Positions 15,351-34,946 of a stretch of DNA of 64,000 nt are shown in pieces. The notes beneath the pieces were generated by a model that did not search any database, was not told the DNA's origin, and saw only the letters and a list, made by a program, of their open reading frames with translations. The DNA comes from Cytobacillus firmus (GTDB lineage Bacteria; Bacillota; Bacilli; Bacillales; Cytobacillaceae). The position numbers and the translations under genes were made by a program. Every line of letters starts with the position of its first letter. The first letter of the stretch is position 1. The DNA lies in contig NZ_CP086235.1 of the NCBI RefSeq assembly GCF_023612095.1, positions 1,137,001 through 1,201,000 on the forward strand. The letters are read 5' to 3'.

Positions 15351-17069
15351 ATAGTTAGTTCACGAGCCAAAAATTCAATATGGTTATTATGGATACTGTT
15401 ATTTCCCGCAGGTTTCATGCTAACCTATCATTTTTACCCTCCCGATCTTTCAGGACAGGGAATCAGTTTATTTGCCTTTTTTATTTTAATGTTTCTCGTT
15501 TCTTCCATGCCGATGGTTGTCAATAATACACCAATTTTTTTGATACAATGGGTTTCCATGGCAGTCTTCTTAACTTTTGGTCTTCTTGCTGAAATTATTA
15601 TGGTTCAGGTGGGTGTCCTGGTACTTCTCATAAGACTTAAAGTACAAAAAGACCAGCTGTTCCGTCTGCCGCTTAACTCACTTTTATTCTTTACGGTCTC
15701 TTTATTGAGCGGGCTGGCTTATTTTGCAATGGGAGGCAAAACAGGAATAGATTTGATTGCTGAACCCCAGTATTTCTGGGTTGCTGCCGCCTATCCGGTC
15801 ATTCATTTTACACTAAATCAGATATTAATCAGTGTAATTCAGGCTGCATTGTACGGCAGGAGAATCTCCTTTCTGGAAAAAGACCTGATTTGGGAAACAG
15901 TCACTTCACTCATAACATTCCCGATTGGCCTTATCCTTTACATTCTTTATGCTGAAGTGGGAATTCTTGCACTCCTGATTGTAGGTGTGCCATTTGTAAG
16001 TCTTTCAATCATACTTCATCTTTATTACTCCAGTGAGAAGGTGATTGATTACCTTCAAAAAGCCTCAGAAATTAGTCATAAAATGGCTGAGCACCTTGAT
16101 GTTAATGAGGTTATGGAGCTTTTTATTTTGAAATTGAGCGAAATGGTTCCTGTTGATTATGCCTATATCCTTGATATCAAAGACAATGATGAACTTCACT
16201 CCCTTTTCCGGAAAGAGCATGAACTAATTAAGCCGAATGATCTTATGCCAACAAATAAAAATGAGGGAATCAGCGGATTGGTTTTAGAGACCAGAAAATC
16301 GGTCCTTTTTCATTCGAAAAGGAAATGGAAAAACATTGCTAAGGAATTTTTGCCGGAAGATGCGGAGAGCATCATTTGTGTTCCAATAGTCCGAAGTAAT
16401 GAAATATTGGGGATTCTGCTGCTTTCATCCACGAAAAAGAGGGCATATGAAAAGTCGCAGCTCATGATTGTCGATATATTATGTTCGCATTTTGCAATAG
16501 CCATTGAGAATGCCAGGCACTATGAAGAAACAAAAGCCAAAAGCGAGCGCTGTGCGCTAACGAAACTATATAATTACCGCTATATAGAAGAGAAACTAAA
16601 TGAAGAATTCAGCAGATTGCAAAATGGTTCAAGGCATCTCCTCTCCCTCATCATACTCGATATCGATCATTTTAAAAAAGTGAACGATACGTATGGACAT
16701 CAGAGCGGAAATGAAATCCTCTGCGAACTGGCTGATCGGCTGACAAATCTGATTGATACGGCTGGAATTGCTGCCCGATATGGCGGCGAGGAATTTATTG
16801 TCCTAATGCCTGATACCAGCAAAGAAGATGCAATAGGCTGGGCCGAGCTTATCAGACAGACCATTGCCAATCGGCCTTTCATACTCAAACAGACCATCGA
16901 TGGAAGAAGCAGCAGCAGTACAAAAGTTTATATTACCGCTTCTATTGGGGTAGCTGCTGCACCAGAAGATGCCGATGATTCTCTGGCCCTCATACGCCAT
17001 GCTGACAGAGCTTTATATGTTGGAGCTAAGCAGGCTGGGAGGAATAGGGTTGCGGAATATGTGAAGTGA
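15351..17069 (+). CDS. Membrane diguanylate cyclase with GAF and GGDEF domains
   Basis: The predicted role is making cyclic di-GMP from two GTP. Hydrophobic segments fill roughly residues 10-215, a GAF-like domain spans about 240-390, and a C-terminal GGDEF domain follows. The active site is intact: IILDIDHFKKVNDTYGH, then ARYGGEEF near residue 478, with no RxxD inhibitory site just before it. No ATG, GTG or TTG is in frame between the stop at 15324 and ATG 15417. However, GGAGGAGGGG lies 7 bases before ATA 15351, and the codons from there encode a further membrane segment (IWLLWILLFPAGF). I use ATA 15351 (572 residues); ATG 15417 (550 residues) is the fallback. It directly precedes the pilus genes. 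Confidence 0.87.
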   Translation: MVSSRAKNSIWLLWILLFPAGFMLTYHFYPPDLSGQGISLFAFFILMFLVSSMPMVVNNTPIFLIQWVSMAVFLTFGLLAEIIMVQVGVLVLLIRLKVQKDQLFRLPLNSLLFFTVSLLSGLAYFAMGGKTGIDLIAEPQYFWVAAAYPVIHFTLNQILISVIQAALYGRRISFLEKDLIWETVTSLITFPIGLILYILYAEVGILALLIVGVPFVSLSIILHLYYSSEKVIDYLQKASEISHKMAEHLDVNEVMELFILKLSEMVPVDYAYILDIKDNDELHSLFRKEHELIKPNDLMPTNKNEGISGLVLETRKSVLFHSKRKWKNIAKEFLPEDAESIICVPIVRSNEILGILLLSSTKKRAYEKSQLMIVDILCSHFAIAIENARHYEETKAKSERCALTKLYNYRYIEEKLNEEFSRLQNGSRHLLSLIILDIDHFKKVNDTYGHQSGNEILCELADRLTNLIDTAGIAARYGGEEFIVLMPDTSKEDAIGWAELIRQTIANRPFILKQTIDGRSSSSTKVYITASIGVAAAPEDADDSLALIRHADRALYVGAKQAGRNRVAEYVK

Positions 17070-17099
17070 AATCCTTTTGCCTGTCAAAAGGATTTTTTT
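17070..17099 (+). terminator. Terminator after the diguanylate cyclase gene
   Basis: AATCCTTTTG pairs with CAAAAGGATT around CCTGT, followed by TTTTT. It starts directly after the stop codon. Confidence 0.88.
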
Positions 17100-17151
17100 A
17101 TGAAAAAACAAATCTTTGGACCTATAAAATATATAGTTTTTATAGGTAAAT

Positions 17152-17160
17152 TGGTATAAT
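17152..17160 (+). promoter_or_regulatory. Extended -10 promoter for the vWA gene
   Basis: TGGTATAAT is a perfect extended -10 element, 42 bases before the start codon. The -35 region is weak. TTTTATAGGTAAATT lies just upstream and resembles sequences before other pilus transcription units. Confidence 0.5.
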
Positions 17161-17201
17161 GGGAGTAATGCATAATACTGGTAAAGGAGGGATTTAACTA
17201 T

Positions 17202-20069
17202 ATGGCAAAGAAAATACTGCTTAGTTTACTAACCGCTCTTATTATATGCTCCCTATCTATTCAACCTTCAATGGCATCTAAATTGAATGATGCCAAGTTA
17301 AACTTCACCGTGCAGCCTTCCCAGAATATAATCGTTAAACCAGCCGGCAAGCCGGCAGCAGCCAATCTGGATTTCAGAGTAAAGCAGAGCGGAACTGCGT
17401 CTGATAGTAATAGAGAACCAATGGATGTTGTCTTTATTATGGATATTTCCGGTTCAATGAATGATGCCGGTAAACTTGACAGCGCTAAAGCCGCAATGAA
17501 AAATGCTCTCGACCATTTTTTAGAGACTGCAAATTCCAAAGACCGATACTATTTAATCCCCTTCAATAAAAAAATCAGCGAGCAAGAGGGATTCTTTTAC
17601 CCAACTGGAAATGCACTAAATGATCTTGGAATGATAAAAGAAAAAGTCAGGACTCTGTCAGCAATCAATGGAACAAATTATAAGGATCCGATAAAAAAAG
17701 CGGAAGAGCTTTTAAAAGGCGGGAATACGAATAATAATATTATCTTCCTGACTGATGGTGTGCCTACATATTCTGAGAATAAAGAAATAAGAACTTTTAA
17801 TAAAAAATCCTGTTTTTTAATATTTTGCGACACAAATAAAGTAACAGAAGAGGTAACTTATATCGAAGAACTTCTAACGAAAGGCTATACAAAAAATGGG
17901 ACTTTTTATCCTTATATCCCTTATCAATACTTGGCCGATGAATATTTTCTAGATAATAATAATCGGAGTTATACTCTGAAAGATAATAGTGAAAACTATG
18001 CATCGACTCAAACCTCTATTAGAAAAGCTATTATTGATGAAGTAAAAAAACTTACTGTTAGTAATATAAAGCTATATTCGATCGGATTTGGCAGTGATAA
18101 AGATATCGATATGAACTTCCTAAACGAGATGTCCAACTATACTGGAGAAACAGCCATTCAGGCAGGCACAGGAAATATTGGGGATATACTCGAACGAATT
18201 TCAAGCAGTGTCCTGAAACCTTCAATTACTGCAGAGATACAAATTGACTTAAATCCTTTTAATGGAAAGGTTACTTTGGCAGAAGGCTCGAATGCCATCC
18301 AAACTGAAAATAACATTATAACCAAACAGGTCAATTTCAAATATGATATTGGCAAAGAAACAATAAGCGAACTGGATTTCAGTATTCCACTAAATTTTGC
18401 GCAAGAGGGAAAGTATCTTTTTAATGATAATATAAAGTTAAAATACAAGGATTTGAATAATAAAGAACAAGTATTAGTCCATCCTGAACTGCAGATTGAA
18501 GTGAAAGATGATGCACCTGCATCATTTAAAGGAACCATGCTGCTGGAAAAAGTGCAAAATGATTTACGTGACTTAGTCAAGGAAATGAATTCAAATACAA
18601 AATCAAACCATTTTAATATTAAATATAATTTGGAGCCAACAGGTATTCCAGATAGCAGAGTGGAAGGCAGCCTCAGGAATGTGGTGATTAAACAGCCGCT
18701 TCCAGATGGGATTCTCATTGCGGACTCTTCTGTTAATGAAGAGATGATTAATGGACAAAGGCATGCAGTTCTTATTCTGGCAAATAGGCAAACCAGCTAT
18801 AAAAATGGTGCTTTCACACCGGATCTTCTTTCTGCAAAAATAGCTTTAAAAGCAGATAGAGCCTACTATGGATTAACAATGCCGCGTGCACAAGTGTTTT
18901 ATACTGACAGCAGATTCCCGGACAAGCCTCAATCAACCAGCATAGCTGCTTCCAGCCAAGTAATTGATGCAAAGGTGAGATTAATTGGTTTTAACAACAT
19001 TGCTTATGATGGAGATGCGTCAGGCATCATCTCAAAAATTGATTTAAATAATAACGGTAAAAAACTGACGCAGACGGAGTTTCCGAATAATTATGGTCTG
19101 AAGAATAAACCTGTAAAGAACTTATATTTTCTTACAGAAACTCAAGTATCAGGCCTTAAAGTTGAATATAGCGATGATAGTATTGCAATGCTATATTTTG
19201 AACCGGATTTTGAGATGAAAGGCCAGGTTACAGGAAAGGTCCTGTCCCATAGGGATGTTGTATTCGAACCGATTTCTTTCAACTTAAGTAAACTGGTTGC
19301 AGGTAAAGATGTAGGTTATTACTACGAAGTTGAGAAAGACGGGGAGAAAGAAGAATGGAGGTCTTTTTCCGCTAATGACAGTGTGCTTTTAGATGCTCCA
19401 GGAACTTATATAATTAAGGTTAAAGCAACTGGAGGATTCGCGTTTGGAAATGAAATCTCAAAGACAATTACAGTTAATAAAAGAATTGAAAGCATATCAG
19501 TAGCTCCAGATCCAATTGAAGTGGATGTCGAAAAGTCAATATCTTTTAGCGTGGAAATTTCACCAGCTGATGCATCCAATAAAGAACTCGAGGTGCTCAT
19601 TGAAGATACCTCTATAGCTGCATTAACCGATGGTTATTCAATTTTTGGGAAATCTGCGGGTGAAACGTATTTAACTGTCAGAACAAAGGACGGCTCCAAC
19701 ATTGAAAAGAAAATAAAAGTGATTGTCACCGATCCTTACATTGCTTTAGAAGAAATAAAGTTTAATAAAGGTGTATATAAGATTGCCAGTGGAGAGAGTA
19801 TCGCGTTAGAAGGAATACTGATATTCAATCCTTTTAATGCCACTGATCAGGAAATTGTTGAATTACTCTCTGAGATGCCTGATAAAGTCCAAGCAGTTCA
19901 AAAGGGTTCTGATTGGTACATTGAGGGTGTGGAAATAGGATACTCCAGGGTAACTGCAGCTGCTGAAAAACAAAAAGACGGAAAGCAGCCGAAAGCTTCA
20001 GCTCTATTTGAAGTAGTGAATAAGGATGAACAAACTGATGATGGTCCTTCTGGAGAGGGTAAATGGTAA
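17202..20069 (+). CDS. Secreted von Willebrand factor A domain protein with Ig-like C-terminal domain, pilus-associated
   Basis: The product is 955 residues. A Sec signal peptide (KKILLSLLTALIICSLSI, cleavage near PSMASK) is followed by a vWA domain at about residues 75-330. It has a metal-site motif DISGSMND (Asp at about 81), and FLTDGVPTYS supplies a later metal ligand. Beta-rich sequence and a bacterial Ig-like (BIG2-type) domain follow at about 765-850. There is no LPXTG motif and no C-terminal membrane anchor, so it is released or held by partners. It converges with three minor pilin genes. By analogy with PilY1-type vWA proteins it may be a pilus-tip adhesin; that role is inference. 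It is unlike a pilin, having no class III leader. ATG 17202 follows AAGGAGGGA. Confidence 0.82.
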   Translation: MAKKILLSLLTALIICSLSIQPSMASKLNDAKLNFTVQPSQNIIVKPAGKPAAANLDFRVKQSGTASDSNREPMDVVFIMDISGSMNDAGKLDSAKAAMKNALDHFLETANSKDRYYLIPFNKKISEQEGFFYPTGNALNDLGMIKEKVRTLSAINGTNYKDPIKKAEELLKGGNTNNNIIFLTDGVPTYSENKEIRTFNKKSCFLIFCDTNKVTEEVTYIEELLTKGYTKNGTFYPYIPYQYLADEYFLDNNNRSYTLKDNSENYASTQTSIRKAIIDEVKKLTVSNIKLYSIGFGSDKDIDMNFLNEMSNYTGETAIQAGTGNIGDILERISSSVLKPSITAEIQIDLNPFNGKVTLAEGSNAIQTENNIITKQVNFKYDIGKETISELDFSIPLNFAQEGKYLFNDNIKLKYKDLNNKEQVLVHPELQIEVKDDAPASFKGTMLLEKVQNDLRDLVKEMNSNTKSNHFNIKYNLEPTGIPDSRVEGSLRNVVIKQPLPDGILIADSSVNEEMINGQRHAVLILANRQTSYKNGAFTPDLLSAKIALKADRAYYGLTMPRAQVFYTDSRFPDKPQSTSIAASSQVIDAKVRLIGFNNIAYDGDASGIISKIDLNNNGKKLTQTEFPNNYGLKNKPVKNLYFLTETQVSGLKVEYSDDSIAMLYFEPDFEMKGQVTGKVLSHRDVVFEPISFNLSKLVAGKDVGYYYEVEKDGEKEEWRSFSANDSVLLDAPGTYIIKVKATGGFAFGNEISKTITVNKRIESISVAPDPIEVDVEKSISFSVEISPADASNKELEVLIEDTSIAALTDGYSIFGKSAGETYLTVRTKDGSNIEKKIKVIVTDPYIALEEIKFNKGVYKIASGESIALEGILIFNPFNATDQEIVELLSEMPDKVQAVQKGSDWYIEGVEIGYSRVTAAAEKQKDGKQPKASALFEVVNKDEQTDDGPSGEGKW

Positions 20070-20070
20070 A

Positions 20071-20097
20071 AGAAAAAGGTGCTCAGCACCTTTTTCT
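20071..20097. terminator. Bidirectional terminator between vWA and minor pilin genes
   Basis: AGAAAAAGGTGCT and AGCACCTTTTTCT form a near-perfect palindrome with U-rich runs on both strands. It serves two converging transcription units. Confidence 0.9.
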
Positions 20098-22091
20098 CAT
20101 TCTATTAATAGTTCATCAGAAAATATTTGAAGATGTTGTACAATTGGAAGGGTATCTATTCGCTGCAGAAGTACATTTTGATCGTAGTTCACGATAAAAC
20201 GGGAATACTTATCCAGCTGTGAAGATTTCGATGGAAGATTTTCGATGGAGTCTGTTTCACCGCGAATAGCGTTAATTATCAGCTTTTCTTTGGCAAAAAT
20301 GCCTCCATTGATATAAAACAGCGAACCTACCCCATATAATTCTGCCTCTTTTTCTGTATAGAAAAATCCTTTTAAAGGTTTTATTCTTTCATCTTCAGGG
20401 ATATATGGCATTCCCTCTTCATCATCAGGATCGAAATTGCCGAATTCATTTATGCGTGTGAGCAGCAAATTATCTTTAGCCATCAGAACAAGCTGTTTTG
20501 TGTTGTTTTCCGATCCTAAAACATTTACATTCGATATATTTGCACGCTTGCCTGCGTACACAACAGAATCAAAGATTACCTGATCATTTTCTGAAGGCTC
20601 TCCGGTTTCATCCCCATTTATTGTAAAAGATTCGTTGGAGATTATGGTTCCTGTCATTTCAATCGAAGTATTTAGAGCATTAATAGCTGTGTTTTTGCCT
20701 GACAATATATCACCGTTGACCTTAATGCCTTTACTGGAAAGTGCGCCACTATTATGAACATAGGATTCTATAATTATATCCTTTGCCGAAATAATATTTT
20801 CATTGACCTCAAGCTTGCCATTAAAATTGACAAGGTGAGTTCTCCCGGTTACTAATATATCTTCATTTATTGTTAAATCTTCAAAATTCACGAGATAAAG
20901 GTCACCATCAACAATCAGTTTTTCATTCAACTCAAGAGAAGTATCCTCTGCCATGATCACCACATCCCCCTGAATAAGACCGTTTAGCAGGGAAGCATCT
21001 TCTAGTGTGTTTATAAGGTAACTTTTAAAATCATCTTCATTATTATTGCCTATTTCCTGCAAAATCTCTGGAAGCCCGGCTTGCTTTTTTACTTGTTCCG
21101 CAATCACAGTATTTATAGCGAAAGAAGAAAGAATTCCGGATTTTATTTCTTCAGAAAAAGTACTGCCATTTCCGGTTCTGAAGGCAGGAATCCCATTCGA
21201 TGATAGGAATTCATTGGCTGCTTCATTCATCGTTCTTTCAAAATCGATATTAATAAATTGGCTGTCATGCTTAAGCTCTGGTACATGGTCTTTATAAAAA
21301 TTCTTTTCTTCTAGCAACGGAAGAAGGTTCGCAGTTGAACTATATAAATCCCCATTAATTGAGGACATATTCGTATCCTGTTTCTTCTTGGTTCCATCAC
21401 GCAAATCATATTCAGCATCATCGTTTAATGTTAATCGGTTAGCATACACATTCCCGGAAAAGTTTGCTGAACCATTTAAAAATAGACCGGAGCCATTATC
21501 ATCAGAAAAAGAGCCGGCAGCATATTTCAAAAAACTAGGAAGGGGAGACAGGATGAGCCTCTTCCTGAGAGTCCGTGTAATCTTACCTTCTGTTTCGACA
21601 GGATTTTTAGTAACTATAATGATGTCTAATACTCTTGTGAAATCATTTTCCAGTTCAATATTAAATGTATCATAATCAGATATGTCATCCATGCAAGGTG
21701 CGGAAGAATCGATAAAGCTTGCACTGCTTCCTGACAGGTCAATAATATTCAAACAGCTTATATTTTCCTTTGTCCTATAAGGAGCGATTAAATCATCTTT
21801 CAGCTTATTCTTCAGGTCTATATCAAAGTTACTCCGTACATAAAGTTTTCCTTCAGTGTTCTTTCTCCGGTAATCTTCAAGAGGAAGGTTCGGCAGTATT
21901 CCTGCCAATTCGGAGGTCATTTGATCGATTAGCTTTACAGAATCATATGTTATGGAAATATCACGTTCCCTCGTTTCCGTTCTTTTGGCCCCTCCCAGAG
22001 AAGCTGCCAGAATACTCATTCCCAAAACAGTAAATATAAGCGACATTAATAAAACAGTAATAAGGGTATTGCCCCGCTCATTTTTCAGCAA
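20097..22091 (-). CDS. Large minor-pilin-like protein (PilX/GspK-like N-terminus, repetitive body)
   Basis: The product is 664 residues. The N-terminus (NERGNTLITVLLMSLIFTVLG) has a prepilin-type basic head, a Gly at the likely cleavage point and a long hydrophobic helix. Residue +5 of the mature form is Thr rather than Glu, as in tip-located GspK/PilX proteins. The centre (about residues 380-520) has regularly spaced short hydrophobic strands such as VDGDLYLVNFEDLTINEDILV and LEVNENIISAKDIIIES, suggesting a beta-solenoid. It is the last of three minus-strand prepilin genes. Its size is far above usual minor pilins. The role as a tip pilin is inferred. Confidence 0.75.
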   Translation of the reverse strand: MLKNERGNTLITVLLMSLIFTVLGMSILAASLGGAKRTETRERDISITYDSVKLIDQMTSELAGILPNLPLEDYRRKNTEGKLYVRSNFDIDLKNKLKDDLIAPYRTKENISCLNIIDLSGSSASFIDSSAPCMDDISDYDTFNIELENDFTRVLDIIIVTKNPVETEGKITRTLRKRLILSPLPSFLKYAAGSFSDDNGSGLFLNGSANFSGNVYANRLTLNDDAEYDLRDGTKKKQDTNMSSINGDLYSSTANLLPLLEEKNFYKDHVPELKHDSQFINIDFERTMNEAANEFLSSNGIPAFRTGNGSTFSEEIKSGILSSFAINTVIAEQVKKQAGLPEILQEIGNNNEDDFKSYLINTLEDASLLNGLIQGDVVIMAEDTSLELNEKLIVDGDLYLVNFEDLTINEDILVTGRTHLVNFNGKLEVNENIISAKDIIIESYVHNSGALSSKGIKVNGDILSGKNTAINALNTSIEMTGTIISNESFTINGDETGEPSENDQVIFDSVVYAGKRANISNVNVLGSENNTKQLVLMAKDNLLLTRINEFGNFDPDDEEGMPYIPEDERIKPLKGFFYTEKEAELYGVGSLFYINGGIFAKEKLIINAIRGETDSIENLPSKSSQLDKYSRFIVNYDQNVLLQRIDTLPIVQHLQIFSDELLIE

Positions 22092-22102: not shown

Positions 22103-22681
22103 TTAAAATCCAAACTTACTATTAAGCTCTAATTTTTCTTCAAGCCTTTCATGATCGAGCTTTAGCATTAAATCAATCATCCCCTGTGTACATTCTTCCT
22201 CATTTTTATTAGTAGACTCAGAACAAGAGATTTCTAATGCGGATTCGCTGAAATCAGCTGCAGAAGTAATCTCTGCGCTATCAATTGAGATTGATTTCCG
22301 GCTGCTGTCATTTTCAGAATCAGTTATTTCAATCCTGATTACCTGCTCATCTTCATTCGCAGTGTTTTGATTTATGGTATAAAAAGTCTGCTGTTCTTTC
22401 TCTTGTTTAGTTAAAGATGTACTTGATGAATTTACCAGCTCAATGCAATTTTTTTCGCCGCATTCTCTGACATAGTCAAAAGGAAAAGAATAAAATGTGT
22501 TCATGATCATTGTTGCTGTATAATCGGCATCATCCCTAAGCTGCCCTTCAATGCCTATCTTATTGTATAGCTTGTACCCAGAAGTAAATACTCCATAAAT
22601 AATCGGAAGGATAATGCTGCTTATAACCAAAACGGCAAGCAATTCATAAAGAGTGGCACCGCGCTCATCGAAGATCTTCAC
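22103..22681 (-). CDS. Minor prepilin, PilW/GspJ-like
   Basis: The product is 192 residues from GTG 22681. It has a class III leader: FDERG, then ATLYELLAVLVISSIILPII, with Glu at position +5 after the predicted G/A cleavage. The body is hydrophilic with several cysteines (CGEKNC, SCSES, EECTQ). It overlaps the 3' end of the PilV-like gene by 17 bases once that gene's frame is restored, and ends 12 bases before the large pilin-like gene, so the three form one operon. The peptidase encoded at 31207 is the likely processing enzyme. Confidence 0.83.
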   Translation of the reverse strand: MKIFDERGATLYELLAVLVISSIILPIIYGVFTSGYKLYNKIGIEGQLRDDADYTATMIMNTFYSFPFDYVRECGEKNCIELVNSSSTSLTKQEKEQQTFYTINQNTANEDEQVIRIEITDSENDSSRKSISIDSAEITSAADFSESALEISCSESTNKNEEECTQGMIDLMLKLDHERLEEKLELNSKFGF

Positions 22682-23176
22682 TTTTTATTTCTCCTTCTAT
22701 ATCTGTAGATTCTTCATTTCCGTTGATCTCCCAGGTCACTGTCGCTTCCAGAGGCACAAAAAGGAAGAGTGTTCCTCTTTGGCGGGATTTGTATTCTCAA
22801 CTTCGGTTTTTGGTAAATTAATAGTTACATTGTACTCAATATTATTAACTATAATTGGACTGCAGGTTTGTTCAGGAGTTTCCCCATTCCAAAATATTTT
22901 ATAAGCACGATCACAAATCAGAAGATTAAGGTAAGCATCTTCATCATTTCTAAACTCTTCTCTTACGTCTATAAAATTTTCTTTCTCAATATGCATTAAA
23001 GCATTTCTTGCAACATTGACAGCTGCCGTTTTCTTTTCATTCATATTAGTATAAGTGTAAGCCTGAGAAAAAAACTTCATGGTTCCCATTAAAACTATCC
23101 CTAATATTGTTAGTGAAACAAGTACTTCCACAAGAGTTAAGCCTTTTGAACTAGTAAGCAATTTTTTAAATTTCAT
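22665..23176 (-). CDS. Minor prepilin, PilV/GspI-like, frameshifted
   Basis: The class III leader reads KFKKLLTSSKG, then LTLVEVLVSLTILGIVLMG, with Glu at +5. The uncorrected frame stops at 22736 after HSSFLCLWKRQ. One added base in the plus-strand A run 22758-22762 gives a continuing FFVPLEATVTWEINGNEES tail. 'VTWxxxG' is a typical C-terminal element of PilV-like proteins, and the stop then falls at 22665-22667. The restored length is 170 residues. Ribosome site GAAGGAG precedes ATG 23176. It is the first gene of the minus-strand prepilin operon. Confidence 0.82.
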
Positions 23177-23208
23177 AGCCCACTCCTTCTTTCAAAATAC
23201 CTATTTGT

Positions 23209-23214
23209 ATTATA
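23209..23214 (-). promoter_or_regulatory. Candidate -10 element for the minor pilin operon
   Basis: Read on the minus strand this is a perfect TATAAT, 33 bases upstream of the PilV-like start. No good -35 match is seen. The divergent 23308 gene starts 94 bases away on the other strand. Confidence 0.4.
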
Positions 23215-23307
23215 CAATATTTAATAGCAAGATTTGTATTTATAGGTCGAATTATGCATTTTTTGAAAAGTTTATCTGTTAAGTCTTAAAAAGAAAGGAG
23301 AGATGGA

Positions 23308-26728: not shown

Positions 26729-26749
26729 AAAGGTAAGGCAGTGGTGGGT

Positions 26750-28410
26750 ATGAAGCAGATGCGCAAGAGACTGGGAGATTTGCTGGTTGACACCGGCCTT
26801 ATCACCGGGGAACAGCTTCAAACATCTTTAAGAGAAAAGGATTCCAATCAAAAGCTCGGTGATGTATTGCTTCAAAAAGGATTTATTACAGAACAGCAGC
26901 TGATTGAGGTTCTTGAATTTCAGCTTGGAATTCCCCATGTCAGTTTATATCGCTATCCCTTTGATACAAAGCTTTTCAGCATTGTGCCAAAAGATGTGGC
27001 AAAGCGGAATCTCCTCATTCCATTAAAGAAAGACGGAGAGAAGCTATTTGTAGCAATGGCAGATCCTATGGACTTTTACACAATTGATGATTTGCGGTTA
27101 TCAACAGGCTTTCAAATTGAAGCAGCCATTGCCACAAAAGATGACATTCTCAGGGCAATCAATAAATATTACGATATGAATGAAGGGTTTGAGGAACTGC
27201 TGGGAACAGCGGGGAATCTGGATGCAGCAGAAGATAATCAGATGGCTGATGAAGATTCGCCTGTCGTCCGGCTTGTCAATCAGATCATTGCCAGTGCAGC
27301 TGCTTTAAAGGCAAGTGATATCCATCTTGATCCCCAGGAAACAAAGATGCTGATCAGATACCGGATCGATGGCGTTTTAAGAACGGAGCGTGTTCTTCCT
27401 AAACATATGCAGAGTGTGCTTTCAGCCCGCATTAAAATCATGTCCAATCTGGATATTACTGAACACAGAATTCCCCAGGATGGAAGAATAAAGATTAATA
27501 TTGATTTTCATCCGGTAGACTTGAGGGTTTCCACATTGCCCACGGTGTACGGCGAAAAAATTGTGCTGCGTTTGCTGGATTTAAGCAGTGCTTTAAATGA
27601 TATCCATAAACTTGGCTTCAATAAATTAAATCTTCAGAGATTCATAGAAATGATTGAAAAGCCTACAGGCATTGTTTTAATAACCGGTCCTACCGGTTCC
27701 GGGAAATCTTCTACTTTATATGCGGCCTTAAATCGCCTGAACAGTGAAGAAGTAAATATTATAACGGTTGAAGATCCCGTTGAGTATCAGCTTGAAGGAA
27801 TTAATCAAATTCAAGTAAATTCCAATGTCGGGATGACGTTTGCAAAAGGTTTGCGGGCCATTCTGCGTCAGGATCCCAATATCATTATGGTAGGGGAAAT
27901 CCGGGATAGGGAAACGGCGGAAGTTTCCATTAGAGCATCACTGACTGGACATCTTGTGCTAAGTACACTTCATACAAATGATTCATTAGGCTCCATCACC
28001 CGTCTTCTGGATATGGGTGTTGAACCGTTCCTTGTTGCATCGTCTTTGAGCGGAATTGTGGCACAGCGGCTCGTAAGGAAAGTCTGCCGGGATTGTTCCG
28101 AGGAGCAGCAGCCGGCTAAGCGGGAAATCGAGATTTTTGCAAAAAGAGGCATAAAACTGGAGAAGGTTGTGCGGGGAAAGGCTGTTCCTCCTGCAATATG
28201 ACTGGTTATAAAGGAAGAATTGCCATTCATGAAGTGCTGGTTATTAATGATGAGATGCGAAAAATCATTATGAATGGTGAATCATTTACAAAACTCCGGG
28301 ATTACGCAATAAGAAATAAAACAGTTTTTCTTATTGATGATGGATTGCTAAAAGTAAAACAGGGCATTACAACTACCGAAGAAGTATTACGGGTAGCTAT
28401 ACCTGATTAG
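26750..28410 (+). CDS. pilB: Type IV pilus extension ATPase PilB, frameshifted near the 3' end
   Basis: PilB/GspE-family hexameric ATPase that powers pilus polymerisation. A GspEII N-terminal domain (RKRLGDLLVDTGLITGEQL, then a second copy near residue 40) precedes the motor. Motor motifs are Walker A GPTGSGKSST near 315, Asp box, Walker B with LRQDPNIIMVGEIRD near 377, and His box TGHLVLSTLHTNDS. The zinc tetracysteine is CRDC plus CSSC; the second half appears only after adding one base in the GGGG/AAA stretch 28173-28179, which joins the 28198-28410 frame (TGYKGRIAIHEVL). The restored length is about 553 residues. The start is uncertain among 26741, 26750 and 26759. Confidence 0.92.
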
Positions 28411-28419: not shown

Positions 28420-29475
28420 ATGAAGACAAAAATAGATTATCTGTTGAGGGCAGCGTATGAGCTGAAGGCTTCGGATCTGCATTTGACCGTTGGGGTTCCT
28501 CCTGTCATACGGATTAATGGTGATTTAAAAAAGTATGGGAAAGATAGTTTGCGTCCGGAAGATACCGAGGGTATGGCTAAAGCCATCATTCCTGCGAACA
28601 TATGGAAGAAGTTTGAGGAGAACGGCGAGCTGGATTTTTCTTATGGAATACCCGGGTTATCCCGTTTCAGAGTCAACGCTTATTTTCAGCGGTCATGCAT
28701 CTCACTGGCCATCCGTGTTGTTCCTACACGAATTCCTGCTTTAGAAGAGCTTGGGCTTCCTCCTGTCTTAAAGAAAGTGGCGGAAAAGCCTCAGGGACTG
28801 GTCCTGGTGACAGGACCGACGGGAAGCGGAAAATCAACGACATTGGCTTCAATGATTCATTACATGAACCAGACGATGAGAAAGCACATTATTACGCTCG
28901 AGGACCCGATAGAATATCTTCATAAGCATGGAAATTGTATTATTGACCAGCGGGAAGTTGGGTTTGATACAAAGCATTTTGCAAATGGATTAAGAGCTGC
29001 TTTGCGCCAGGACCCGGATGTGATTCTTGTAGGGGAAATGCGTGACCTGGAAACCATCCAGACAGCCATAACAGCGGCCGAAACTGGCCATTTGGTGCTT
29101 GGCACACTGCATACCTCAAGTGCTCCAGCTACGATTAACCGAATTATCGATGTATTTCCGCCCTCCCAGCAGGCGCAAATCAGAATACAGCTTGCTTCTG
29201 TATTAGTGTCGATTATATCGCAGCGGCTTTTTCTCACAGCAGACAGGAAGGGCCGTCACGCAGCTACAGAAGTGCTTATGAATAATTCTGCTGTGGCAAA
29301 CCTGATCAGAAATGAAAAGATCTACCAGATCATCAATGTGATGCAAACGTCACGTGCCCAGGGAATGCATACACTCGAGACAAGTATTACTTCTCTATTG
29401 GAGAGCGGAAAAATCGCCAAAGAATCAGCATTGCCGTATATACAGGAAAAGGTGACTGATCATGCCCCGCTATAA
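28420..29475 (+). CDS. pilT: Type IV pilus retraction ATPase PilT
   Basis: PilT powers pilus depolymerisation and twitching. The 351-residue length is typical. It has an N-terminal PAS-like domain (ASDLHLTVGVPPVIRINGDL), Walker A GPTGSGKSTTLASM near residue 136, the Asp box, Walker B RQDPDVILVGEMRD, His box TGHLVLGTLHT, and the PilT-specific AIRNLIR-like motif (AVANLIRNEKIYQI near 292). No zinc cysteines are present, which separates it from PilB. ATG 28420 follows TTAGGAGT, 9 bases after the pilB stop. It overlaps pilC by 14 bases. Its presence indicates a dynamic pilus rather than a competence pseudopilus. Confidence 0.95.
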   Translation: MKTKIDYLLRAAYELKASDLHLTVGVPPVIRINGDLKKYGKDSLRPEDTEGMAKAIIPANIWKKFEENGELDFSYGIPGLSRFRVNAYFQRSCISLAIRVVPTRIPALEELGLPPVLKKVAEKPQGLVLVTGPTGSGKSTTLASMIHYMNQTMRKHIITLEDPIEYLHKHGNCIIDQREVGFDTKHFANGLRAALRQDPDVILVGEMRDLETIQTAITAAETGHLVLGTLHTSSAPATINRIIDVFPPSQQAQIRIQLASVLVSIISQRLFLTADRKGRHAATEVLMNNSAVANLIRNEKIYQIINVMQTSRAQGMHTLETSITSLLESGKIAKESALPYIQEKVTDHAPL

Positions 29476-30667
29476 ATACAGCGGGCGTGACCGCAAAGGG
29501 AAGAAAACTGGAATCGTGACAGCTGTTTCTAAAAGGGAAGCCATGCTTCAGCTGAAGGAAAGCGGTATAAGGATTCAGGATGTTCAGGAAGTACCGGAGA
29601 CGTTTTTAACAAAAGAAATAACTATTGGCAATCCGGTCAAGCTCCAGGACTTTGTCATCTATCTGCGCCAGTTTGCCACCTTGCTGAAAGCGGGGGTCAC
29701 AGTGGTAGAATCAACCGCTATACTTGCGAAGCAAACTGAAAGCAAAGCACTTAAGAGGGCATTAATAGCTGTCGAACAGGATTTGCGTGATGGACTTCCT
29801 CTTTCAGATGCTGCATCAAGGCATAAAAAAATCTTCAGCGGAATGTTCGTCAATATGATCAAAGCAGGGGAAGCAGGCGGAAACATGGACGAAACGCTTG
29901 AAAGGCTTGCAGTCCATTTTGAAAAGCAGCACTACACAAAGCAGAAAATCATATCAGCGCTTGCCTATCCGATAACTGTCGGCATAATAGCTGTTGCAGT
30001 AGTTATCTTTCTGCTCGTTTCTGTTGTGCCTACTTTTGTGGAAATGTTTAAGGATTTCGGAGGAGAACTCCCTGCCATTACACAATTTGTTCTCAGCTCC
30101 AGTGAGTTTATGCAGCAATACTGGTGGTTTGTCATCATCTTATTTTTGGCTTTCTTTATGAGCATTGTGTTTATTCGCAACAATAAAGCTAGTAAATATT
30201 ATCTGGATTATTTCCTGCTGAGGATGCCGATCTTCGGGAAGATTCTTCAGAAAGCAGCCATAGCAAGAATGACAAGAACCTTAAGCTCGTTATTTTCAAG
30301 CTCTGTGCCGATACTGCAGGCCCTAAGCATTGTCGAAAGCATTGTAGAAAATGAAGTAATGGCAAAGGTGATTGCAAAATCAAGAGATTCACTTGAGCAG
30401 GGGAAGTCTCTGACGGAACCAATGAAGAAACACTGGGTCTTCCCGCCGCTGGTATCGCAAATGATTGCGATCGGGGAAGAGTCCGGATCACTGGATGCGA
30501 TGCTCGGGAAGGTAGCTGACTTTTACGAAAAAGAAGTAGAAAGCGCCACAGACAGATTAAAATCACTCATTGAACCGCTCATGATTGTCTTTCTGGCCAG
30601 CATCGTCGGGACTATAGTCACCTCTATTATGGTGCCGATGTTTGAAATCTTCCAGCATGTTGGATAA
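29462..30667 (+). CDS. pilC: Type IV pilus inner-membrane platform protein PilC
   Basis: PilC/GspF is the polytopic platform that couples the ATPases to pilin insertion. The product is 401 residues with two homologous cytoplasmic GspF domains (FVIYLRQFATLLKAGVTVVES near 67 and ARMTRTLSSLFSSSVPILQAL near 268). Membrane helices lie near residues 170-195, 220-240 and 375-395. MIKAGEAGGNMDETLERLA and AIGEESGSLDAMLGKVA are the paired family signatures. The N-terminus (PRYKYSGRDRKGKKTG) is typical. Translation is coupled to pilT by the overlap. Confidence 0.96.
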   Translation: MPRYKYSGRDRKGKKTGIVTAVSKREAMLQLKESGIRIQDVQEVPETFLTKEITIGNPVKLQDFVIYLRQFATLLKAGVTVVESTAILAKQTESKALKRALIAVEQDLRDGLPLSDAASRHKKIFSGMFVNMIKAGEAGGNMDETLERLAVHFEKQHYTKQKIISALAYPITVGIIAVAVVIFLLVSVVPTFVEMFKDFGGELPAITQFVLSSSEFMQQYWWFVIILFLAFFMSIVFIRNNKASKYYLDYFLLRMPIFGKILQKAAIARMTRTLSSLFSSSVPILQALSIVESIVENEVMAKVIAKSRDSLEQGKSLTEPMKKHWVFPPLVSQMIAIGEESGSLDAMLGKVADFYEKEVESATDRLKSLIEPLMIVFLASIVGTIVTSIMVPMFEIFQHVG

Positions 30668-30723: not shown

Positions 30724-30772
30724 AGTACCATAATAGGTAAAATAAACTACTAGTTTGAGAGGGAGAGTAAAA

Positions 30773-31192
30773 ATGATTAAGAATTTAAGAAAACGACTTA
30801 AAGATCAAAAAGGTTTAACGTTAATTGAATTGCTTGCGGTTATTGTTATTTTGGGGATTATTGCGGCGATAGCGATTCCTAGTATTGGAGGATTAATTAA
30901 TAAAACGGAGGATGATGCAAAGGTTGCTGAGGGTATTCAAATTATTAATGCAGCTAAGCTTTACACCACTTCAAATGCTCCGAAGGGCGGGGAAGAGTTA
31001 ACGAAAACTGAGCTTTCTGACTATCTAGACAACATTAATGATGATAGTTATAAAGTAACAATTACTAAGCATGATACAACTGGTAAATACTCTTATTCCT
31101 TAAGCAACCACAATTCAGTAAAATTGGTAGGTGGCAAAGATGCTACATCAGTTTCTGAAGATGAACTATTATCTAAAGACACTGACGAATAA
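30773..31192 (+). CDS. Major type IV pilin
   Basis: The product is 139 residues. The class III leader MIKNLRKRLKDQKG is followed by LTLIELLAVIVILGIIAAIA, with Glu at +5 of the mature form, and a small C-terminal domain (TTSNAPKGGEELTKTELSDY onward) without cysteines. Its position between pilC and pilD, its own -10 element and a GAGAGGGAGAG ribosome site point to the major subunit. ATG 30773 is chosen over an in-frame upstream GTG/TTG because the spacing and leader length fit. Codon use favours A/T-ending codons more than its neighbours, compatible with high expression or divergent origin. Confidence 0.92.
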   Translation: MIKNLRKRLKDQKGLTLIELLAVIVILGIIAAIAIPSIGGLINKTEDDAKVAEGIQIINAAKLYTTSNAPKGGEELTKTELSDYLDNINDDSYKVTITKHDTTGKYSYSLSNHNSVKLVGGKDATSVSEDELLSKDTDE

Positions 31193-31206: not shown

Positions 31207-31950
31207 ATGAACTTAATATTGCTCTTAATCGGACTTCTTTTAGGCTCCTTCTACAACGTAGCAGGCCTAAGAATCCCGCAGAACCAGTCTATCGCAGTAC
31301 CGCGGTCCCATTGCCCGCACTGTAAGCATACTCTAACACCTTTGGAACTTGTTCCGGTCTTATCGTATATATTTCTAGGAGGAAAGTGCCGGCGCTGCAA
31401 AGCGCCGGTTTCAGCCTTATATCCGGCTGTTGAGCTTTCAACAGGAATCCTGTTTGCTGCTGCACCGCTGGTTATGGGATGGACTGCTGAATTGTTTGTT
31501 GCCTGGACGGTAATTTCGCTTGTAATCATTGTGTTTGTATCAGATTTCAAATATATGATTATTCCAGATAAGGTTTTGCTGTTTTTTGCTGCTGTCTTAA
31601 TAGCAGAACGCATTTTCATACCGCTCTCTCCGTGGTGGGACAGCTTAGCAGGTGCAGGACTTGGTTTCTTCCTTCTTATGCTGATAGCTATCATCAGCAA
31701 AGGCGGCATGGGCGGAGGAGATATCAAGCTGTATGCCGTCATTGGCATTGCTTTAGGTGTAAAGCTTGTTTTGCTTTCATTCTTCCTTGCTACATTATTC
31801 GGTGCCGCCATTGGCGGCCTTGGCATGATTCTGGGAATTGTTCAAAAAGGCAAGCCTATCCCCTTTGGCCCATTCATTGGGATTGGGACTTTACTGGCTT
31901 ATTTTTATGGCAGAGAAATAATTGAGTGGTACTTTCATTCATTCTTATAA
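31207..31950 (+). CDS. pilD: Prepilin leader peptidase/N-methyltransferase
   Basis: This membrane aspartyl protease cleaves prepilins after the leader Gly and methylates the new N-terminus. The product is 247 residues with about seven membrane segments. The N-terminal zinc cysteines are CPHC and CRRC (near residues 36-62). The catalytic Asp residues are in VSDFKYMIIPD and GGGDIKLY. It is the positional counterpart of B. subtilis comC (folC-comC-spoIIB), so it may also process ComG pseudopilins. ATG 31207 is 14 bases after the pilin stop and its ribosome site is weak (AGTTAATAAATC). Confidence 0.95.
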   Translation: MNLILLLIGLLLGSFYNVAGLRIPQNQSIAVPRSHCPHCKHTLTPLELVPVLSYIFLGGKCRRCKAPVSALYPAVELSTGILFAAAPLVMGWTAELFVAWTVISLVIIVFVSDFKYMIIPDKVLLFFAAVLIAERIFIPLSPWWDSLAGAGLGFFLLMLIAIISKGGMGGGDIKLYAVIGIALGVKLVLLSFFLATLFGAAIGGLGMILGIVQKGKPIPFGPFIGIGTLLAYFYGREIIEWYFHSFL

Positions 31951-31967
31951 AGGGGATGGCATTTTGA

Positions 31968-32000
31968 AATAAGAGCTGGACTATTCCGGCTCTTATTTTT
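31968..32000 (+). terminator. Terminator after pilD
   Basis: AAATAAGAGC pairs with GCTCTTATTT around TGGACTATTCCG, followed by TT. It lies 17 bases after the pilD stop and separates it from pilMNO. Confidence 0.82.
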
Positions 32001-32038
32001 CCCTAGGCAAATCTAACATAATTAAGGAGTTTTTCATC

Positions 32039-33034
32039 ATGGCAATGCGATTTCTTCCCGGAAAAAAGAAGCATGTAAATTTAATTATCAAAGACCATGT
32101 TATTCGGTATGCAGAACTTAAAAGTCAGCGTGATTTGGATCTGGCAAGATGGGATGAACGGTTTCTGCCGCCGGGGATTATTAAGGATGGGAAGATCCTG
32201 GATTATGATACACTTGCTCTTATCCTTGAAGAATGCGTCAATGAGTGGAAAATAAAAAACAGGCAGGTATATTATACTGTACCTGATCCTTTTATTGTAT
32301 TGAGAAAGCTGACCATACCGGGGGATGTCCAGGAGGATGAGATTAAAGGCTATTTATATATGGAACTTGGCACCAGCATACATCTGCCTTTTGAAGAGCC
32401 TGTTTTTGATTATCATGTTCTCAGTTCAGATCGGAAGGATTCATCCGAAATCCTGCTGTTCGCTGCTCCTGAAGAGATTGTCATGGAATATACCGAACTA
32501 TTCGAGGATGCAAAACTCCGTCCCGCAGCTGCAGATATCTCTTCTCTCGCACTGTTTCGTCTTTATTGCAGCTATTTTGAAGAACAGCAATCAGAAGCTA
32601 TTATGCTCATTCAGATTGACCTGAATTCTGCAGTGTGCAGCATTTTTGAATCAGAAATCCCGGTATTTATGAGAAACATTGCGATTGAGACAGACTTAAC
32701 CAAGTGGGTAACAGCAGCAATGCCTAATGGAGAAAAGAAGCTGGAATACAGCGGCAAAGAAGCAGAAGTGCTGCATCCCCTATTGGATATTTACAATGAT
32801 ATTGAAAAAGTAATGAATTTTTACCGGTATTCATTAAATCAGGGACAGCGCCAAATTAGCAGGATCATTGTAACCGGCGATCACCCATGGCTTGAAAACA
32901 TTCATAGGGATATAAAAAACAGAATGGAAGTGCCAGTTGTTTCTTTCCGGGACTGCCTGAACAGCGGACAGTATGAGCTGCTGAAGCAATCAGCTTTCCA
33001 TGTGAATATTGGACTTGGCTTAAAAGAGGGATAG
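32039..33034 (+). CDS. pilM: Pilus assembly protein PilM
   Basis: PilM is an actin-like cytoplasmic protein that binds the PilN N-terminus and forms the alignment subcomplex. The product is 331 residues with the actin-like ATPase fold (VNLIIKDHVIRYAELK at the start, IQIDLNSAVCSIFE near residue 198, IIVTGDHPWL near 280). The ATPase motifs are weaker than in Proteobacteria, as is usual in Firmicutes. ATG 32039 follows TAAGGAG. The order pilM-pilN-pilO with small gaps is the family standard. Confidence 0.9.
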   Translation: MAMRFLPGKKKHVNLIIKDHVIRYAELKSQRDLDLARWDERFLPPGIIKDGKILDYDTLALILEECVNEWKIKNRQVYYTVPDPFIVLRKLTIPGDVQEDEIKGYLYMELGTSIHLPFEEPVFDYHVLSSDRKDSSEILLFAAPEEIVMEYTELFEDAKLRPAAADISSLALFRLYCSYFEEQQSEAIMLIQIDLNSAVCSIFESEIPVFMRNIAIETDLTKWVTAAMPNGEKKLEYSGKEAEVLHPLLDIYNDIEKVMNFYRYSLNQGQRQISRIIVTGDHPWLENIHRDIKNRMEVPVVSFRDCLNSGQYELLKQSAFHVNIGLGLKEG

Positions 33035-33037
33035 CGC

Positions 33038-33697
33038 ATGCAGGTTGACATTAATCTTCTTCCTCAAAGGGAAAAAAGAACCAAAAACATCTATATTATT
33101 GTGGGTATTATTGTTGTCTTGCTTATTGCTGCATTCTTGTTTGTGTATTTAACAGTTGAAAAGAAAAACACTGAGATTCTTCAAATTGACAAGAGAATAA
33201 CCCAAACAAATGAAATTCTTGAAGCTCAGCAGGCAAAGCTTGCAGACTACCAATCTTCCAATGCGGCAGAAGAGCTGAAAATTGCCATTGAATGGGCAGA
33301 AAAGCAGCCATTCGAATTGGTCTTCCTTATGAAACAGTTCACCAGGCTTCTTCCTGAACGAGGATTCGTGATTGAGTTTGAGCTGGATGAAGAAAATAAG
33401 GTCAATCAGATTGTTCAATTTGACGCGAAAAGCGAGGCTGCCTATTATTTGCATAGTCTGACAGAATTGCCGTGGGTTGATGAAGCGATTATAAGCGAAG
33501 CTAAAACTGCAGACATCTTAAAAGACGAAGCAGCTGAACTTAGAAAACAGGCAAACATACAGCCGAGGTATTATGCAGAATTTGAATTAAGAATTAACCC
33601 GGCAGTGCTTAATGAGACCGCCGATATGGATGAAACCAAAGGTACAGAGGAGAAGGATTCCTCCGCTCAGCAAGAGGAAGGGGCTGATTCTCCGTGA
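33038..33697 (+). CDS. pilN: Pilus assembly protein PilN
   Basis: PilN is a bitopic membrane protein linking PilM to PilO. The product is 219 residues. The N-terminal DINLLPQREKR is the conserved PilM-binding motif. A single membrane helix follows (IYIIVGIIVVLLIAAFLFVYL, residues about 20-40), then a coiled coil (about 45-90) and a small alpha/beta domain. The tail is acidic (DMDETKGTEEKDSS). It ends in a GTGA overlap with pilO. Confidence 0.93.
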   Translation: MQVDINLLPQREKRTKNIYIIVGIIVVLLIAAFLFVYLTVEKKNTEILQIDKRITQTNEILEAQQAKLADYQSSNAAEELKIAIEWAEKQPFELVFLMKQFTRLLPERGFVIEFELDEENKVNQIVQFDAKSEAAYYLHSLTELPWVDEAIISEAKTADILKDEAAELRKQANIQPRYYAEFELRINPAVLNETADMDETKGTEEKDSSAQQEEGADSP

Positions 33698-34473
33698 ACC
33701 GGGAAATTTCCAAGAAACAGCTTGTATATGTTTTGCTTGCATTGATTTTTATATCGGGAATAGGATTTGGAAGTTATTATCTCTTTATAAAGCCGGTGAA
33801 CGAAAAAATGGACAGGAAGCAGTCTGAGCTGCAAATGGCCACTCAGCAATTAACCATTATCGAGAATAATCTTCAGCAGCTGAATGAGCAGACCGTATTG
33901 AGTACGGTAGAGCTTCAAAAGCAGGTTCCTGTCAAAAGGCTTCTGGATCAGCTTCTTTTGGATATCGAAAAATCTGAAATTATTTCAGATGTTAATATCA
34001 TAGAAATGAAGATGAATGGTACTGAAAGTGATGAAGAAATCGACCTTTCTGAAGAAGAAGAACATCAGCCTCAAGAAGAAAATTCTGAAACGGAGGATTC
34101 GAAAGAAATCTCAGAAACAGATCCATTGATAGAAGAGAAGCTGCCAAATGGCATTAAAAAGGTTTCGATTGTCCTAAACGGGCAGGCAGATACTTATTTT
34201 GAAATGGAAAGTTTTATTAAGAATTTATTGGATTTAAAAAGGGTCCTAAAGGTAGAAAGCTTGAAATATACGGGCTTTGATGAAATTGTGAGTGTTATGC
34301 AGGAGGACCAGATGGTTGAATTTGAATTGGCGATAGCGGCCTATTACTACCCTGAACTGGCAGAGCTGCAGAAAGAGCTCCCTCCTTTGGATACTCCGAG
34401 AATATCCAATAAAAAAAATCCATTAAGCAGCTTCTCTGAACTGGAAGCTGAGGAGGATAATCAAACACCTTAA
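33694..34473 (+). CDS. pilO: Pilus assembly protein PilO
   Basis: PilO is a bitopic protein that heterodimerises with PilN in the alignment complex. The product is 259 residues from GTG 33694, overlapping pilN by four bases. A membrane helix lies at about residues 9-31 (QLVYVLLALIFISGIGFGSYYLF), then a coiled coil (40-75), an acidic insertion (EEIDLSEEEEHQPQEE near 110-145) and a ferredoxin-like domain (VSIVLNGQADTYFEMESFI). The acidic insertion is larger than in classical PilO. Confidence 0.88.
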   Translation: MNREISKKQLVYVLLALIFISGIGFGSYYLFIKPVNEKMDRKQSELQMATQQLTIIENNLQQLNEQTVLSTVELQKQVPVKRLLDQLLLDIEKSEIISDVNIIEMKMNGTESDEEIDLSEEEEHQPQEENSETEDSKEISETDPLIEEKLPNGIKKVSIVLNGQADTYFEMESFIKNLLDLKRVLKVESLKYTGFDEIVSVMQEDQMVEFELAIAAYYYPELAELQKELPPLDTPRISNKKNPLSSFSELEAEEDNQTP

Positions 34474-34499
34474 CCAAAAAACGAAGAGAGGTCTAGTAT

Positions 34500-34946
34500 A
34501 TGATAACTGCTGCTAGACTAAACAATAAGGGGTTTACATTGATTGAAGTGCTGGCCGTCATAGTCATATTGGGCATCATTTCTTTAATTGCCGTCATTTC
34601 AGTTAATAATGTCGTTCAAAGAGTGAAAGATCAGGCATTTGTGGGAAATGCTCTTGCATTAAAGGAATCAGCGGAGCTTTATATAAGAAATGAAATCATC
34701 AGCGGAAGTATGCTGCCGGAAAAAGTAACATATTCAATGCTCGCTGATGCTGACTTCATTGAACCAATCAGGGACCCTGATACAAAAAATCTGCTGCAGC
34801 CTTCTGAGAGTACCTATGTTGTTGTCAGCGGGAAATCGATAGCCGCTGTTTGCTTTAGAGGAGAAAAGCGGAGTTTATGCTACTCAAATGGCAATGAAGG
34901 TATTCCCATAAATAAATTGGATCCCGAATTCATTACTGAGAATTAG
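34500..34946 (+). CDS. Type IV prepilin (PilE/GspH-like)
   Basis: The product is 148 residues. The leader MITAARLNNKG is followed by FTLIEVLAVIVILGIISLIA, with Glu at +5 of the mature form. The C-terminal domain has two cysteines (AVCFRGEKRSLCYSN), possibly a disulfide. It follows pilO by 26 bases with AGAGAGG upstream of ATG 34500, and is followed by a terminator, so it closes the pilus operon. It could be a second pilin or a minor pilin; the sequence does not decide. Confidence 0.88.
   Translation: MITAARLNNKGFTLIEVLAVIVILGIISLIAVISVNNVVQRVKDQAFVGNALALKESAELYIRNEIISGSMLPEKVTYSMLADADFIEPIRDPDTKNLLQPSESTYVVVSGKSIAAVCFRGEKRSLCYSNGNEGIPINKLDPEFITEN

Follow-up and report, generated by a model that had tools for sequence, protein, structure and literature searches.

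Type IVa pili of Gram-positive bacteria are encoded by clusters in which the genes for PilB, PilC, PilD, PilM, PilN, PilO and PilT lie together with several prepilin genes, as in Bacillus sp. NRRL B-14911, Geobacillus, Exiguobacterium, Clostridium perfringens and Streptococcus sanguinis. One survey lists pil operons for the first three of these and notes pilT in Gram-positive pil operons (Imam et al. 2011, PMC3244431). The Com (ComG) pilus of Bacillus subtilis, a member of the same filament superfamily, is reported to be a true, retractile pilus (PMC10564135). A locus of the first kind is found in Cytobacillus firmus (assembly GCF_023612095.1), in a stretch of 64,000 nucleotides (positions 1,137,001 to 1,201,000 of NZ_CP086235.1, forward strand) that is called the window here and lies within a single contig of 4,383,751 bases. 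It shares the gene set given above and, relative to the published descriptions of those loci, differs in its position, the folC-spoIIB site of comC, and in two of its products, a solenoid prepilin and a vWA protein that is secreted. Genes for a PRC-barrel protein, a VanW protein and a diguanylate cyclase lie alongside. Relatives of the vWA protein are present in Geobacillus/Parageobacillus.

We consider it highly probable that this is a retractable type IVa pilus at an ancestral folC-spoIIB site, that the pilus genes were lost in many lineages with pilD kept for ComG, and that some pilus-less states were imported by recombination in the flanks.

Gene content and family assignment

The type IVa pilus gene set occupies both strands between folC (13953-15266) and spoIIB-maf-radC (35074 onward). 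After folC come a diguanylate cyclase, the vWA protein, three minus-strand prepilins, a transmembrane (TM) protein, a PRC-barrel protein, a VanW/G5 protein, PilB, PilT and PilC; these are followed by a prepilin, PilD, PilM, PilN, PilO, another prepilin, spoIIB, maf and radC. The core of the locus is the plus-strand run PRC-VanW-PilB-PilT-PilC-PilA1-PilD-PilM-PilN-PilO-PilA2. An earlier description made from the letters alone (the sequence-only reading) had given the order folC-pil genes-pilD-pilMNO-prepilin-spoIIB-maf, which open reading frames (ORFs) and Pfam matches bear out. Its five prepilins are likewise recovered, three by Pfam N_methyl and two (22103-22681 and 20097-22091) by prepilin-like N-termini judged by eye. 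The features are as follows.

15417..17069, plus strand: dgc, membrane GAF-GGDEF diguanylate cyclase with a GGEEF motif (Pfam GGDEF, 2.2e-41)
17202..20069, plus strand: secreted vWA + Big_2 protein of 955 amino acids, candidate pilus-tip adhesin with a conserved C-terminal Trp
20097..22091, minus strand: prepilin-like protein of 664 amino acids (pilX664) with a beta-solenoid-like domain, in the PilX position, candidate tip minor pilin (N-terminus by eye; no Pfam match)
22103..22681, minus strand: PilW-like prepilin (prepilin-like N-terminus by eye, and position; no Pfam or NCBIfam match)
22736..23176, minus strand: PilV-like prepilin, frame shifted near the 3' end as sequenced (Pfam N_methyl; frame comparison with the near relative G019)
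23177..23307: divergent intergenic region between the minor pilins and the core operon, equal in length in the 5 genomes compared, window included
23308..24588, plus strand: TM protein with an acidic region, first gene of the plus-strand operon (ORF; no Pfam or NCBIfam match; present in near relatives)
24601..25335, plus strand: PRC-barrel protein (Pfam PRC, 8.1e-12)
25355..26728, plus strand: VanW protein, probably exported (Pfam VanW, 7.7e-9; G5 match below cut-off)
26741..28201, plus strand: pilB, extension ATPase with an MshEN c-di-GMP-type domain, open part (T2SSE 8e-120, MshEN 3.3e-22)
28162..28410, plus strand: C-terminal part of pilB, in a different frame as sequenced (T2SSE 295-370; frame comparison; intact in relatives)
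28420..29475, plus strand: pilT, retraction ATPase (TIGR01420 above cut-off; PilT group of the tree)
29462..30667, plus strand: pilC, platform protein (Pfam T2SSF, 3.3e-62, two stretches)
30755..31192, plus strand: pilA1, likely the major pilin; listed start TTG, an internal ATG may be the true start (Pfam N_methyl)
31207..31950, plus strand: pilD, prepilin peptidase, positional equivalent of comC (A24_N_bact and Peptidase_A24)
32039..33034, plus strand: pilM (Pfam PilM_2, 2.8e-21)
33038..33697, plus strand: pilN (position; invariant INLLP near the start in 13 aligned sequences)
33694..34473, plus strand: pilO (via relatives; the window's own matches only T2SSM, below cut-off)
34500..34946, plus strand: pilA2, second pilin (Pfam N_methyl, 9.9e-9)
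34984..35010, plus strand: terminator-like stem of 10 pairs with a T run, in the gap between pilA2 and spoIIB (pattern scan)

PilT exceeds the cut-off of NCBIfam TIGR01420 (483.6 versus 319.1 bits), and PilB, PilC and PilM all pass Pfam thresholds. At E<=0.01, Pfam PilN is matched by 7 of 13 aligned PilN sequences and Pfam PilO by 8 of 14 PilO sequences, the window's own two proteins lying above no family cut-off. The motif NF053729 for cyclic di-GMP (c-di-GMP) is matched in PilB at 61 bits versus a cut-off of 38, which predicts c-di-GMP binding. No secretin family of Pfam was matched among the scanned proteins of the locus. Several values count against the assignment: PilB remains below the cut-off of NCBIfam TIGR02538 (551.2 versus 675.65 bits, with a query lacking the C-terminus), the best NCBIfam score of PilC is 385 versus a cut-off of 424, with a GspF model, and PilM is below its NCBIfam cut-off (111.4 versus 133 bits). 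Judged from sequence, the assignment to a type IVa pilus is nonetheless supported: the locus has PilB, PilT, PilC and PilMNO of its own, class III prepilins and a PilD-type peptidase.

The folC-spoIIB site across genomes

In B. subtilis the order at this site is, as given in the sequence-only reading, folC-comC-spoIIB-maf. Among 36 genomes of the genus, pilT is found in 22, pilD in all 36, and ComGA also in 36 (at E<=1e-70, some in pieces). The folC-spoIIB interval, a comparison named in the sequence-only reading, is long with pilT and short without: it measures 11.3-21.8 kb in 22/22 genomes that have pilT, whereas 12 of the 14 that lack it show 2.8-7.1 kb (G003 and G008 were not measurable). 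Genes or fragments of the pil set adjoin pilD at E<=1e-5 in seven of these 14 pilus-less congeners (G004, G005, G008, G015, G022, G027 and G031), for example a pilC piece of 96% identity in G008 and pilM-pilN-pilO in G031; relaxing the search to E<=1e-3 adds G010. The pilus state changes at least 8 times on the flank tree and 7 times on the PilD tree, at least 5 of the latter being forced by starred branches. Change counts alone cannot separate gain from loss; because pil fragments remain, loss is the better account.

Outside the genus, 20 pilT loci were selected for family spread. In 16 of them folC together with maf and/or radC flanks the pil genes, with a folC 34-65% identical to that of the window; four lie elsewhere (G050, G063, G068 and G196), a point against an ancestral pilus locus at this site. 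PilD was matched in 13 of 16 pilT-less genomes searched (14 of the 16 are outside the genus, drawn from 105 genomes of the class without a PilT match). Nine of those outside the genus have a near-full-length PilD, and in eight of these it stands at the folC-maf/radC site with no further pil gene beside it; the exception is G064. The loci of named relatives and the sampled genome set overlap in part and are not independent. Whether the locus was gained here or lost in B. subtilis had been left open by the sequence-only reading; the genomes compared now point to loss, and the lone comC of B. subtilis-type chromosomes looks like a retained pilD.

Loci of this kind are not rare. In an even sample of the window's class, 145 of 250 genomes, belonging to 74 of the 106 genera sampled, have a PilT at E<=1e-60; this threshold isolates PilT, the window's own PilB and ComGA falling short of it. 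That such pili would be unusual in Bacillaceae-type bacteria, where the sequence-only reading had called them less well known than in Clostridia, is supported neither by these counts nor by the pil operons published from Bacillales in 2011, and the pilus is of a known kind (PMC3244431). No open-access literature on Cytobacillus firmus with type IV pili was found, and no open-access title on twitching and type IV pili in Bacillaceae dealt with this locus.

Relation to the Com pilus

In a tree of 67 ATPase sequences, PilB (30), PilT (30) and ComGA (5) form separate groups with support of 86, 100 and 99; the tree was made by a quick method that carries a long-branch warning, and its ComGA sequences are the five found among nine tried of 12 loci. 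PilB is also below the cut-off of the ComGA model (265.8 versus 300 bits). The pil genes thus lie outside the ComG clade, and a separate comG operon, read by eye from comGA to comGG, is located about 200 kb from pilB. The sequence-only reading had set a retractable surface pilus against the ComG pseudopilus: the locus does have its own PilT and PilMNO, outside the ComG clade, whereas the contrast with a pseudopilus is dated (PMC10564135). What the two systems probably share is the prepilin peptidase. At E<=0.001 the genome has no Peptidase_A24 match besides PilD, and since no other prepilin peptidase was detected there, one enzyme probably serves both the type IV and the ComG pili.

In G024 and G032 the comGA match is split in two, with gaps of about 36 and 38 kb that would fit a large element within comGA. 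Partial or split comGA matches were also observed in G002, G008, G011, G028 and G035.

Pilins, tip candidates and c-di-GMP

The pilin pilA1 is the most variable of 18 products compared among five near relatives, with a mean identity of 64% versus 88-98% for the 17 others, which belong to the locus and its flanks. Its identity is 89% in the first 60 alignment columns and 45% beyond them, and we infer diversifying pressure, such as that from phages, as a possible cause. Two products outside this comparison, PilV and the TM protein, are 74-92% and 83-88% identical, respectively, to those of the window in the four nearest loci.

The structural model of the 664-residue pilin has a long N-terminal helix followed by a strand-rich, solenoid-like part. 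A sequence search of the PDB gave no match at E<=0.1. The best Foldseek match is ComZ of Thermus, and it is weak (prob 0.20); haemopexin-binding, ice-binding and other beta-helix proteins score equal to or above it. ComZ of Thermus thermophilus has a prepilin-like N-terminus and a beta-solenoid domain (PMC6561018); the 664-residue pilin has such an N-terminus and, in the model, a solenoid-like part. A pilus that is mainly a DNA-uptake device, not one for adhesion or motility, could be proposed from this likeness; we regard it as unlikely. The structural match is weak, and the bacterium in which ComZ serves DNA uptake has an outer membrane.

PilY1 proteins are defined by a vWA domain with a PilC beta-propeller C-terminal domain. 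In the vWA protein of the window, no PilY1-type C-terminal domain was matched in Pfam at E<=0.001, VWA and Big_2 being the only matches. Like the PilY1/PilC1 tip proteins of two-membrane bacteria, it is a secreted vWA protein beside PilV-PilW-PilX-like minor pilins, an order familiar from those systems; it differs in having a Big_2 module in place of the PilY1-type C-terminal domain. A review states that monoderms lack such late-stage components (PMC6916266). In Streptococcus sanguinis PilB the vWA domain is part of a pilin; in the window it belongs to a separate protein with a signal-peptide-like N-terminus. A sequence search of the PDB with this protein returned two matches only, both in the Big_2 region. 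In Foldseek the sortase-pilus adhesins SpaC and PitA are ranked first with low whole-chain TM-scores; Mfa5 and S. sanguinis PilB align with the vWA part, but unrelated vWA domains, such as that of TFIIH, do so equally well. A C-terminal Trp, often as Gly-Lys/Arg-Trp, is found in 15 of the 19 vWA proteins returned, query included; the four without it are the most distant, and a weak match (L078) also ends otherwise. The residue perhaps serves docking.

The genes vwa, pilX664 and prc share one distribution among the 22 pilus genomes of the genus, being found together in 10 of them (the vwa match in G006 is partial). Outside the genus the link is looser: prc occurs without vwa in L022, L025 and L034, and vwa with pilX664 occurs without prc in L023, L024 and G143. 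Together these observations suggest a tip complex that includes the vWA protein and the solenoid pilin. The diguanylate cyclase gene is present in 9 of 14 pilus-less congeners (two of the other five could not be assessed); dgc is therefore probably not pilus-only, and the idea of a diguanylate cyclase or c-di-GMP circuit dedicated to the pilus is weakened. The first MshEN motif of PilB also has K in place of the Q of the known motif.

No c-di-GMP riboswitch reached the gathering score of Rfam in the window, where only a T-box, an L21 leader and Bacillaceae-1 were found. The T-box leader (10928-11182) lies upstream of an ORF of 881 amino acids at 11238-13883. Terminator-like sites in the region number 7 against 11.2 expected from shuffles, a number that gives no support, and promoter-like sites show no excess (29 versus 30.0 in shuffles).

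Reading frames in the window

As sequenced, pilB is open only up to 28201, the C-terminal part following in a different frame; the pilV frame is also shifted near the 3' end by comparison with G019. The locus had been called complete in the sequence-only reading. All of the pil genes named there are recognisable, and to that extent the description stands; with pilB and pilV out of frame as sequenced, it is too generous. An open pilB frame of 548-575 codons is found in 25 of 27 relatives' loci, the other two being a short contig and a shorter frame. Programmed recoding of pilB is disfavoured by this single open frame.

With pilB out of frame the pilus of this strain could be dead, which would count against a working retractable pilus, and the locus here could be a non-functional remnant. 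The short pilB occurs in the window alone among the 22 genus genomes with pilT, and pilV is shifted as well, as a remnant would lead one to expect. We nevertheless hold a remnant to be improbable, as the damage extends to genes that have no part in the locus. Of 71 ORFs of G019 that match the window, seven are split over more than one frame: pilB, pilV, mreB, nadB, nadC, one antisense to mreB and one near 2525-3465. The shifts relative to G019 include mreB at 37815-38872, nadB at about 52651-54235 and nadC at about 54096-55039 (named from Pfam). Because these three genes are shifted too, sequencing error is the likelier cause of the pilB and pilV shifts. Since B. subtilis needs mreB for growth under standard conditions, several sequencing errors are a likelier explanation than gene decay. 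The remaining core genes are open, with mean identities of 91-97% among the five near relatives, pilA1 apart. Indel errors in the assembly are thus likely to lie behind both shifts.

Descent and probable exchange of the locus

Distances of PilB, PilT and PilC agree with those of folC + radC (Mantel r 0.57 over 21 genomes, a value reached in 10 of 5000 permutations), and more closely without the displaced loci of G009 and G029 (r 0.80, 0 of 5000 permutations, 19 genomes). From this agreement descent appears largely vertical, with exceptions. The exceptions are loci of another type swapped in at the site: that of G009 is nearest to G250, of another family, and that of G029 is unlike those of its congeners. 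Because such swaps occurred within the genus, vertical descent cannot be read from a common site in every case. G030, too, has an other-type locus at the site, to judge by gene order and identity. In G029 and G030 a diverged, differently ordered pil locus occupies the same folC-spoIIB site.

These swaps, and the exchange via flanks described below, would be expected if this lineage had recently acquired the pilus locus at its comC site by horizontal transfer, B. subtilis representing the ancestral state. We find this decidedly improbable, since the site is common to 16 of the 20 pilT loci compared outside the genus, with folC at 34-65% identity to the window's, since pil distances track flank distances, and since pil fragments adjoin pilD in half of the pilus-less congeners.

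Exchange is suggested by G001 and G010. Relative to the C. firmus group they are 94% identical in folC, 95% in dgc and 91% in spoIIB, but only 75% in PilD, which is instead 91% identical to that of a pilus-less group X (G004, G005, G011, G024 and G035). The pilus-bearing G032 mirrors them, its PilD being 86% identical to C. firmus and 77% to X, with folC at 85% and 93%, respectively. Approximately unbiased (AU) tests rejected a PilD tree in which the C. firmus group stays together (p 2.6e-43) and a flank tree that unites the seven lone-pilD genomes (p 6.8e-6). In windows of 150 bases, G001 is 94-99% identical to G000 and G019 through dgc. After the end of dgc it is closer to X than to C. firmus over about 1.35 kb that contain the lone pilD, and from the start of spoIIB it returns to C. 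firmus at 99%.

Synonymous divergence (dS) shows the same split. Between G001/G010 and X it is 0.19 for pilD, compared with 0.45 for folC, 0.50 for dgc, 0.41 for spoIIB, 0.34 for radC and 0.16 for maf. Between C. firmus and X the pilD value is 1.65, far above the flanks (0.19-0.56). For G032, pilD dS is 0.60 relative to C. firmus (folC 0.43, dgc 0.71) and 1.34 relative to X (flanks 0.10-0.28); the values relative to C. firmus fit vertical descent of its pilus locus. Three points detract from the case for exchange: the groups in the AU tests were named after the identities had been seen, dS of maf does not discriminate between the cases, and pilD values above 1 approach saturation. That PilD of the pilus-less species differs merely through faster evolution after loss of the pilins, with no transfer, is scarcely credible: pilD dN/dS is indeed 0.25 within the lone-pilD group versus 0.13 within the pilus group, but synonymous sites are split alike (for G001/G010, pilD dS is 1.74 relative to the C. 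firmus pilus group, where the flanks give 0.09-0.25, but 0.19 relative to X, where they give 0.16-0.50), so that faster PilD evolution alone is disfavoured.

The lone-pilD allele, on these comparisons, seems to have come from a diverged source and then to have spread between species. Fragments of pilA2 in G004, G005 and G010 show that it, too, once carried pilus genes. We think it probable that the lone comC is the surviving pilD of an ancestral pilus locus, kept for the competence pilus, and that in separate Cytobacillus species homologous recombination in the neighbouring genes put a short, diverged pilus-less allele in place of some 18 kb of pilus genes; this would make piliation swappable, perhaps under selection by pilus-targeting phages or by cost. 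Neither comC as a pilus relic nor such allele exchange was found among the open-access papers listed, judged mostly by title, from which absence is not proven.

Proposed mechanism and implications

The gene content is observed, and from it we infer how the pilus is assembled and gated, what its tip consists of and what it does. PilB, its MshEN domain probably responding to c-di-GMP, would extend a PilA1 filament that PilT would retract, the filament being built on PilC-PilM-PilN-PilO from prepilins cut by PilD. The tip would consist of PilV, PilW, the solenoid pilin and the secreted vWA protein, and would probably bind surfaces or polymers. PilD would also have to serve the separate ComG pilus. 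An ancestor of many families of Bacilli would have held such a locus at the folC-spoIIB site; many lineages would then have dropped the pilus genes and kept pilD for ComG, leaving the lone comC in B. subtilis-type chromosomes. Some pilus-less states may have arisen when homologous recombination in the flanking genes brought in an allele without pilus genes.

If this is true, it explains why comC stands alone, far from comG: the competence pilus relies on a leftover part of another machine. Allele exchange between species could then also be a way in which loss of a surface organelle spreads. Because sister species differ in the presence of the pilus at a single site, adhesion, twitching, phage sensitivity and transformation can be compared directly among them. 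Tip complexes would have a simple model in this monoderm pilus, whose vWA tip candidate is a protein of its own and whose pilins include a solenoid one.

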